Of a DNA stretch of 64,000 bases, positions 5,065 through 64,000 are shown one piece after another (within the stretch, counting starts at the first letter, position 1; each line of letters starts with the position of its first letter). The notes beneath the pieces are model-generated. The model was given only the letters and a program-made list of their open reading frames with translations, searched no databases and was not told where the DNA came from. Where the stretch lies: positions 1,485,001-1,549,000 of the forward strand of contig NZ_CP097562.1 in the NCBI RefSeq assembly GCF_000487995.2, in the 5' to 3' direction. A program made the position numbers and the translations under genes. The stretch comes from Mucispirillum schaedleri ASF457. GTDB lineage: Bacteria > Chrysiogenota > Deferribacteres > Deferribacterales > Mucispirillaceae.

Positions 5065-5250
5065 CTAAACCACTAAATAAATTTCTCTTTTCTGCAAAGG
5101 TGTAAGTCCACAGGCTGCATACCCCCCCCCATACATATAATTTATATTATTAATAGTTTTGGGTAATATCAATCTGTCGCAGCTTGTTTTTAGTGAAAGT
5201 ATTTTATAAATAAGCTGATTACTTTTTTTGCCTAAAAGATATATATTCAT
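5065..5250 (-). CDS. Short ORF of unknown function with an internal G9 tract, in the PseG position of the pse operon
   Basis: This 61-residue frame starts with an ATG that overlaps the stop of the upstream cytidylyltransferase (ATGA), so it looks like a genuine, coupled operon member. It reads about 40 residues of ordinary protein sequence, then passes through nine consecutive G (plus-strand C9 at 5122-5130, coding Gly-Gly-Gly) and stops 18 codons later. Adding one G gives a 75-residue product and removing one gives about 60 residues, so no phase opens a long frame. In pse operons this slot usually holds pseG (UDP-sugar hydrolase, about 270-350 residues). The remaining space is too short for that, and I cannot show that this sequence is homologous to PseG. 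It is a truncated or decayed gene, or a small phase-variable gene. Confidence 0.55.
   Translation of the reverse strand: MNIYLLGKKSNQLIYKILSLKTSCDRLILPKTINNINYMYGGGYAACGLTPLQKREIYLVV
5122..5130 (-). repeat. Homopolymeric G9 tract (C9 on the plus strand)
   Basis: Nine uninterrupted C on the plus strand lie within a coding frame of a surface-glycan operon in an AT-rich genome. Tracts of this type in Campylobacter and Helicobacter glycosylation genes change length by slipped-strand mispairing. Variation at this site is inferred, not shown. Confidence 0.85.
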
Positions 5251-32589: not shown

Positions 32590-32718
32590 GGGGGGGGGAG
32601 AGCAGGCTCAAAATGGCTGTAAAATGAAGGTTATATACATAAAAAAAATCATATAAAATATACTGCTTAAAAAATAAGCAGCATGGTAAAGGGCTTGTTA
32701 AATCAGAAAAAACAATCT

Positions 32719-62463: not shown

Positions 62464-62739
62464 ATTCAAATGAAGACATATTGAAGGGCAGCATTTTTAT
62501 TACTTTTGTATGATATATGTATATTATACAGTGGTATTTTTATCCTTTGCCAATCTTTATATTTAATTACCTTATGTATGAAATCAGCAGATAAAATTTG
62601 TTTAAAAAGCTGATAATAATAAATAACTCCTGTCTTAATAAGTATTATATTTATGAATATGAAATATGATGTATCTTTATTGATTTATATTTTATTTAAT
62701 ATTGATTAATAAGGCTAAAATATATAAAGGAGGTTTTAT

Positions 62740-64000
62740 ATGAGGTTTATGTCCACGGTATGCATTACAGCCTTGGTATCTGCCATTATGCTTCTTTCTG
62801 TCACAGAAAGTTATGCATATAAGGGAGATGAGTTTATCACACCAGACAGCTGGAACAGGCATATCACATCAAATGGTATAAAGTCAACAATGAACGGCAT
62901 ATCCTTTGGGGATACGGGTCTTCTGAAAATAGGCTTAACAACCCGTGCAAAATTAAGGTTCAGTGATGAGACAGACTTTCCAATTTATCAGTATGCCCGT
63001 CTTAGATTAAGCGGTGTTCAGGCAGGAGAAGGCGAGTTTGTGCTTAATCTTAATATGCGTGGAGCCTATGATGATACCCCAGCAATAGGCGACAGAACAT
63101 ACCACAGGTTTTACAGCGGCCTGTATGCGTCCCGCTCTTATAATGAATATACGAGAAGTGTTAAATCATTAGATGGCGATTTCAGGATATATCAAGGTAA
63201 CATAGAGCTTAAAAATGTTATTCCAATTACCGATATTTCTTTGGGCAGAATATATTTACAGCAGATAGACGGTTATAAAATAGATGGAGCTAATATTAAA
63301 TTAACCCCATCAGAATATTTTAATATAGGTGTATACTACGGTTTACCTGTGAGCTATTACAGTGATTTACAGACACAGGTAGTGGGAACAAATATAGAAA
63401 TCCCAGTAGCATCCAGCGGGACAAGTCTGAAATTAGCATACAGCTATTTTATGAAGCTCAACAGTGGGGGGGGGAATCCAGACACCCATGTAGCTAGAGC
63501 ACGGCTGGACCAGTCATTAAATTTTAATCCAATATCAGCATCCTTCTACGCAGAAGGAGACCTAATCGGCGAAGCCTTTGTATATGAAGTAGGTTTTGAT
63601 GCAGACATACATGCAAGCAAAACGGGCATATCAGCATATATCAATGGTCAAGCTACACATAATGAAAACCCAGTAAACACATATGTATCTTTATACGAAG
63701 GGATATTAAGCTCCAGCGAATATGTTATGGGCGGTTTTAAAATATCACAAGGTATAGTAGACAAACTTCTTTTAGGCATAGGCTATGAGGGCAGGTTTAA
63801 TTTCAGCACAGCTTATGGCGACCGAGATTACCACAGAGTATTTGCGAATTTAGACTTAGTGGGCTTAATTCATAGAAACAACTATCTGAGCTTAATAGTA
63901 GACTATTACAATGTTCCAGAGATAAAACATCAAAACGGCAATGAGAGAGTAGTAGGCGGCTTTAGAATGACACAGGTATTCCTTGAAAACTTAGAAGGCT
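62740..64000 (+). CDS. Outer-membrane beta-barrel (porin-like) protein with in-frame G9 tract, 3' end beyond window
   Basis: The frame is open for 420 codons to the window end. A perfect AAAGGAGG (62726-62733) precedes the ATG. The signal peptide is residues 1-26 (STVCITALVSAIMLLSVTESYA). The mature part is a run of alternating beta strands ('LRFSDETDFPIYQYARLRL', 'FVLNLNMRGAYDD', 'TSLKLAYSYFMKLN', 'GIGYEGRFNF'), as in outer-membrane barrels. Codons 243-245 are GGG GGG GGG (63466-63474). One G more or less leads to a stop within about 10 codons, so the gene is in the ON phase as written. Base use is GC-richer than most neighbours. No porin subfamily assigned. Confidence 0.78.
   Translation, partial: MRFMSTVCITALVSAIMLLSVTESYAYKGDEFITPDSWNRHITSNGIKSTMNGISFGDTGLLKIGLTTRAKLRFSDETDFPIYQYARLRLSGVQAGEGEFVLNLNMRGAYDDTPAIGDRTYHRFYSGLYASRSYNEYTRSVKSLDGDFRIYQGNIELKNVIPITDISLGRIYLQQIDGYKIDGANIKLTPSEYFNIGVYYGLPVSYYSDLQTQVVGTNIEIPVASSGTSLKLAYSYFMKLNSGGGNPDTHVARARLDQSLNFNPISASFYAEGDLIGEAFVYEVGFDADIHASKTGISAYINGQATHNENPVNTYVSLYEGILSSSEYVMGGFKISQGIVDKLLLGIGYEGRFNFSTAYGDRDYHRVFANLDLVGLIHRNNYLSLIVDYYNVPEIKHQNGNERVVGGFRMTQVFLENLEG
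63466..63474 (+). repeat. Homopolymeric G9 tract inside the porin-like gene
   Basis: Nine G, exactly in frame (three Gly codons), probably in a surface loop between predicted strands. A candidate slipped-strand switch. Confidence 0.85.

Follow-up and report, generated by a model that had tools for sequence, protein, structure and literature searches.

The last part of the window, by which we mean the whole 64,000-nucleotide stretch of Mucispirillum schaedleri ASF457 DNA that was analysed, holds the greater part of a gene for a predicted outer-membrane barrel protein, which continues for 260 bases beyond the window end (to genome position 1549260) and encodes 506 amino acids in full. The protein carries a signal peptide and ends in a C-terminal sequence resembling a beta-signal (...VEMWVNFIW), and its gene is the first of a stand-alone operon in the order barrel, five-haem cytochrome c and two-haem lipoprotein cytochrome (Table 1). 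It contains an in-frame tract of nine G residues (G9), which lies at exactly the codons given in the first-pass annotation; the strong ribosome-binding site claimed there was likewise found, with AAAGGAGG placed 6 nt before the ATG, and all other factual points of that annotation hold.

Table 1. Coordinates of the features discussed, in window positions unless a locus or the genome is named
Feature	Position	Strand	Basis and remarks
Putative outer-membrane barrel gene	62740..64000	+	ORF, signal peptide, family alignment; codons 1-420 inside window
Shine-Dalgarno AAAGGAGG of barrel gene	62726..62733	+	Read directly; 6 nt to ATG
G9 tract	63466..63474	+	Codons 243-245 (GGG GGG GGG, in frame) from ATG 62740; proposed slippage switch
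Five-haem cytochrome c	L090:4275-4790, outside window		171 aa, five CXXCH motifs; directly downstream of barrel
Two-haem lipoprotein cytochrome	L090:4814-5617, outside window		267 aa, lipobox, two CXXCH motifs
C9-C11 tracts in candidate promoters	Genome 863232, 1217453, 1327554, 1567066, 1791309, 1921193, 1933225, 1982876		Loci L077, L085, L087, L091, L037, L038, L039, L040

Searches with the barrel protein against Pfam, NCBIfam and the PDB returned no matching family or solved structure, and the label 'porin-like' used in the first-pass annotation is as such without support from these sources. Similarly, no homology to MtrB_PioB or to any other known conduit barrel emerged when 24 family members were compared with Pfam and a family profile with the PDB, and an AlphaFold model built from an alignment of four sequences reached a pLDDT of 27.8 and was not used as evidence. 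The 24 homologues aligned across the Deferribacterales are nevertheless alike in having a signal peptide, in being poor in cysteine and in ending with a beta-signal-like sequence, and every barrel gene examined on a sufficiently long contig, those of distant Deferribacterales included, adjoins a gene for a cytochrome with five to six haems. The signal peptide, the C-terminal signature and the gene neighbours point to a barrel fold, and the gene context to a role as an electron conduit. One mark of such conduits, a (here predicted) barrel gene beside that of a periplasmic multihaem cytochrome, is present at the locus; another, eight to ten haems in this cytochrome, is not, there being five CXXCH motifs. 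The generic surface porin originally suggested finds no support; the gene is a member of a family of barrels and cytochromes that is linked to DMSO-reductase-like enzymes.

As in contingency loci, a change of a single unit in the tract both shifts the reading frame and truncates the product. With G8 the gene would yield 250 amino acids, with G10 252, and with either G7 or G11 251, a stop lying about 8-10 codons 3' of the tract in every one of these variants, and the earlier expectation that slippage by +1 or -1 would bring a stop within about ten codons is thereby borne out. The barrel of the sister species G009, a protein 93% identical, has G9 at the same codons, and in this comparison (dS 0.63) the three GGG codons of the tract are all matched, but of the five GGG codons found at other shared glycines not one is. 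The barrels of G001, G002 and G005 have no tract at this first site (GGT GGT, or GAC AGC) and carry G9 some 90 codons 3' of it, at a site where other homologues have GGC GGT TTT or similar; the last of the three glycines there takes the place of Phe, Leu or Val, the substitutions being different from those at the first site. The four distinct stand-alone barrels group together in the tree with 100/100 support, and within this clade the two tract sites fall into sister clades. Since the tract is always present though relocated, and truncates the protein at either site, its retention and re-creation across species go beyond codon needs and are hard to explain by the needs of the protein. The first-pass annotation had held that homologues with mixed glycine codons, together with a strain-specific G9, would speak against a switch: tract-free homologues in which the glycine codons are mixed do exist (GGC GGA, GGT GGT), but G9 is not strain-specific. 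The barrel copies seen in five genomes (four distinct, those of G002 and G005 being 99.6% identical) all have G9 and are all ON, and phase switching of this gene is inferred.

The genome as a whole (2,347,083 bp, one contig) contains 43 runs of at least nine G, where a Markov model of first order, fitted to the window sequence, gives an expectation of about 0.4. There are 5, 6, 33, 8 and 2 runs of exactly 7, 8, 9, 10 and 11 G, for which the same model predicts 10.8, 1.8, 0.3, 0.05 and 0.008, and in the window there are six 8-mer G runs against 0.04 expected. Runs of G9 are thus commoner than those of G7 or G8, and this gap below G9 is a mark of tracts maintained by selection. Tracts exceeding chance length in or near genes, the length spectrum, truncation in both directions, retention in the sister species and re-creation elsewhere in the gene in three more genomes are together the behaviour of contingency tracts, and the 43 tracts support the genome-wide contingency strategy that had been proposed for this organism. 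Among same-genus genomes, eight of the nine have 13 to 43 tracts and the ninth, which is 57% complete, has 2; other genomes of the order mostly have 0-8, the exceptions being G011 (64), G037 (65) and G024 (18). A chance run of glycine codons was rejected as the origin of the tract on the evidence of codon usage, the Markov spectrum and the cross-species codon comparison, and loss of MutS was rejected as the cause of long tracts, mutS1 being present with a score above its cut-off.

The distribution along the chromosome is uneven. Its first quarter (genome 617-585471) contains no G run of seven or more, the 42 further tracts all lying elsewhere (P about 6e-6 if tracts were uniformly distributed); masking as the cause was rejected, as six 20-kb samples of this region contain no N. 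Two more G9 tracts of the window, at 5122-5130 (minus strand) and 32590-32598 (plus strand), lie outside ORFs of at least 100 aa and have no flanking promoter boxes of the TTGACA/TATAAT type.

The same genome encodes four more barrels of the family, which are 57% identical to the stand-alone barrel and 97-99.8% identical to each other. Each belongs to an operon encoding a molybdopterin oxidoreductase, an Fe-S protein, a chaperone, the barrel and a five-haem cytochrome. The reductase, of 1.1-1.2 thousand codons, has a Tat signal and a lipobox, the Fe-S subunit is a four-cluster protein and the chaperone is NarJ/TorD-like. The best-matching families are DmsA/YnfE for the reductase, DmsB for the Fe-S subunit and TorD for the chaperone, with the curated cut-offs missed for TIGR02166 (DmsA/YnfE; 255.9 against 777.7 bits) and TIGR02951 (DmsB; 126.4 against 214.1 bits); the combination of Tat signal, Fe-S partner and TorD-like chaperone in one operon is that of DmsAB-type enzymes. 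While the five-haem cytochromes, like the barrels, hardly differ among the four operons (98-100% identical), identity among the catalytic subunits is only 35-50%, such that nearly the same conduit is paired with enzymes that have diverged. This contrast in identity (operons at L079, L080, L045 and L072/L005) has the appearance of gene conversion or of shuffled modules. Tandem barrel-cytochrome-reductase-FeS modules also occur, without G tracts, in the free-living Deferribacterales G041 (L187, L188; four copies) and G032 (L189; at least two copies). The tracts themselves are distributed over Mucispirillum and another genus of its family, represented by G011, where the 64 tracts of G9 or longer include some in reductase leaders and about ten barrel pieces were found; G011 is a second lineage that has this system. 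The stand-alone tract-bearing conduit was observed in five genomes of Mucispirillum.

Each of the four reductase operons of this genome (G000) has G9 in its first gene, just past the lipobox at about codon 47; in the stand-alone operon G9 lies in the barrel gene, which is likewise the first. This division holds across genomes: the barrel bears the tract in five of five stand-alone operons, and about 17 barrels in reductase operons have none, the tract being in the reductase gene instead. Reductase operons in which no tract was seen are G001:C39 and G008:C188, the latter on a short contig. Among the 21 tract-bearing reductase genes parsed in the genus, with tracts of G8 to G10, 8 have the frame intact (ON) and 13 have it shifted (OFF), which is near the one-third share of ON that a random frame would give; these lengths are those of the assembly consensus, in which a one-base error is possible, above all in long-read data. 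The 13 OFF copies are otherwise open as far as they were read. Three of the four G000 copies are OFF, and the view that OFF reductases are decaying pseudogenes was rejected, the frame in these three remaining open for 1089-1120 codons past the tract. Close orthologues differ in state: at 92% identity the gene is ON in G000 (G000_D) and OFF in G009 (G009_C151) and G006, and at 88% identity G10 is ON in G001 (G001_C139) where G9 is OFF in G003 (G003_C1) and G006. Such differences are direct evidence of tract-length switching between lineages, as distinct from switching within a population, and tract-length switching of the reductase genes is strongly supported. No support was found for the 'co-ordinated' switching of the first-pass annotation; the tracts slip independently, and of the four paralogous operons one is ON and three are OFF.

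As to mechanism, slipped-strand mispairing at the tract is the likeliest; it would cause reversible loss of the first protein encoded in each operon. With G9 the full 506-aa barrel would be made (ON), and after a one-base change translation would stop at about 250 aa, leaving no barrel (OFF); expression of the downstream cytochrome genes may then drop too, by polarity. In the stand-alone operon the OFF state would remove the barrel and with it, probably, the entire conduit, and in a reductase operon it would remove the terminal reductase. With each operon switchable at its first gene, a population would be expected to contain a mixture of extracellular (or outer-membrane) respiratory enzymes. 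By analogy with DmsEFAB, the barrel-cytochrome pair should carry electrons across the outer membrane. We consider it likely that the gene encodes the barrel of a porin-cytochrome-type electron conduit and that G9 is its slipped-strand contingency switch, and the best reading of the whole is a phase-variable extracellular-respiration system.

A phase-variable barrel could instead be a surface antigen or phage receptor, that is, an ordinary diffusion porin whose switching serves escape from immunity or phage and not respiration. Surface structures are the typical contingency genes, and other tracts of this genome lie in genes for glycosyltransferases, O-acyltransferases and a large Big_2 protein. 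However, the barrels of the four reductase operons are equally exposed and yet tract-free, the tract being found in the reductase gene, and the barrel is always accompanied by a multihaem cytochrome. A role as antigen only is made less likely by these equally exposed sister barrels without a tract, and we regard it as unlikely.

Two further possibilities leave the DNA unchanged or deny a switch altogether. A fixed G9 might tune expression by transcriptional or translational slippage, giving a constant mixture of full and truncated protein, and the modal length of G9 (33 of the 43 tracts) and its occurrence in all barrel copies seen would be in keeping with this. The range of G8 to G10 among reductase genes of close orthologues is not, and slippage could only reduce the output of a gene in which G9 is in frame, so that tuning of this kind appears improbable. 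Less probable still, to a degree that we give it very little weight, is that G9 merely encodes a Gly-Gly-Gly loop. Homologues often have Gly-Gly at this loop, but GGG makes up 12% of glycine codons here, the GGG codons of the tract are kept where others change, and other species have the tract at a different loop with no tri-Gly at this one.

Like the poly-G/C contingency loci of Neisseria, Campylobacter and Helicobacter, the system combines a long in-frame G tract with truncation by one base, and many tracts in surface and glycan genes. It differs from them in that a respiratory conduit gene and the genes for the catalytic subunits of DMSO-reductase-like enzymes bear tracts, and we found no published phase-variable respiratory reductases or conduits in the open-access literature that was searched. 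In the DmsEFAB system of Shewanella, of which several copies per genome are known, the barrel DmsF surrounds the cytochrome DmsE, with the reductase DmsAB outside (PMC9732548). Shared with DmsEFAB/MtrCAB are the outer-membrane barrel, the periplasmic multihaem cytochrome, the Tat-exported DmsA-like and DmsB-like subunits and the chaperone; unlike them, the putative barrel here, of about 505 aa, has no MtrB_PioB match, its cytochrome is shorter and has 5 haems and not 10 as in MtrA/DmsE, one kind of conduit stands alone and includes two-haem lipoprotein cytochromes, and G-tract switches are present. Porin-cytochrome (Pcc) clusters, described in Geobacter and reported in Denitrovibrio acetiphilus too (PMC4245776), likewise unite a barrel, a periplasmic cytochrome and an outer-membrane cytochrome in one cluster, but with 8- and 12-haem cytochromes in place of the 5- and 2-haem cytochromes found here, and the Pcc reports mention no tracts. 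In Mucispirillum schaedleri itself a reductase similar to DMSO, tetrathionate and TMAO reductases (AYGZv1_260003/260004) is induced in inflammation, in a paper that makes no mention of phase variation, tracts or porins (PMC5285517); it is possibly one of the reductase operons described here.

Tracts of this genome are also found in settings apart from respiration. Eight C9-C11 tracts (Table 1) lie between TTGACA and a TATAAT-like box, with five perfect at both boxes and spacers of 14-17, and are likely to mark phase-variable promoters, judging from the boxes. In Neisseria porA and opc the tract is similarly located between -35 and -10. Among the genes downstream of these eight are those for a GtrII-like glucosyltransferase, a TRL-like protein, an Mrr-like restriction gene and uvrB. 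A sulfatase-family gene (L043:6531-8552; genome 2207031-2209052) contains two in-frame G9 tracts, and further in-frame tracts (L082, L088, L084, L076, L081, L044 and L038) occur in genes for two MBOAT O-acyltransferases, glycosyltransferases of families 2 and 9, a histidine kinase, a chemotaxis receptor, an ATP-grasp protein and a 1012-aa Big_2 protein.

Phase variation is usually discussed as altering the surfaces that face immunity and phage. Here the device appears to govern the electron acceptors usable by a gut bacterium, the reductases being near the random one-third ON. On balance, Mucispirillum would maintain a set of extracellular respiratory reductases in which near-identical conduits serve diverged catalytic subunits, each reductase under random poly-G switching and the stand-alone conduit under a switch of its own, as bet-hedging over electron acceptors in the gut, a reading which we hold with somewhat less assurance than that concerning the barrel. 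The link to life in host mucus made in the first-pass annotation has nothing behind it beyond the known habitat of the genus. If the interpretation is correct, metabolic bet-hedging in a mouse commensal could be tested directly on isolates and reads that already exist, and one reference genome would misstate the respiratory capacity of the species. More generally, the findings suggest that small barrel-cytochrome conduits form a family, so far undescribed, that extends across the Deferribacterales.
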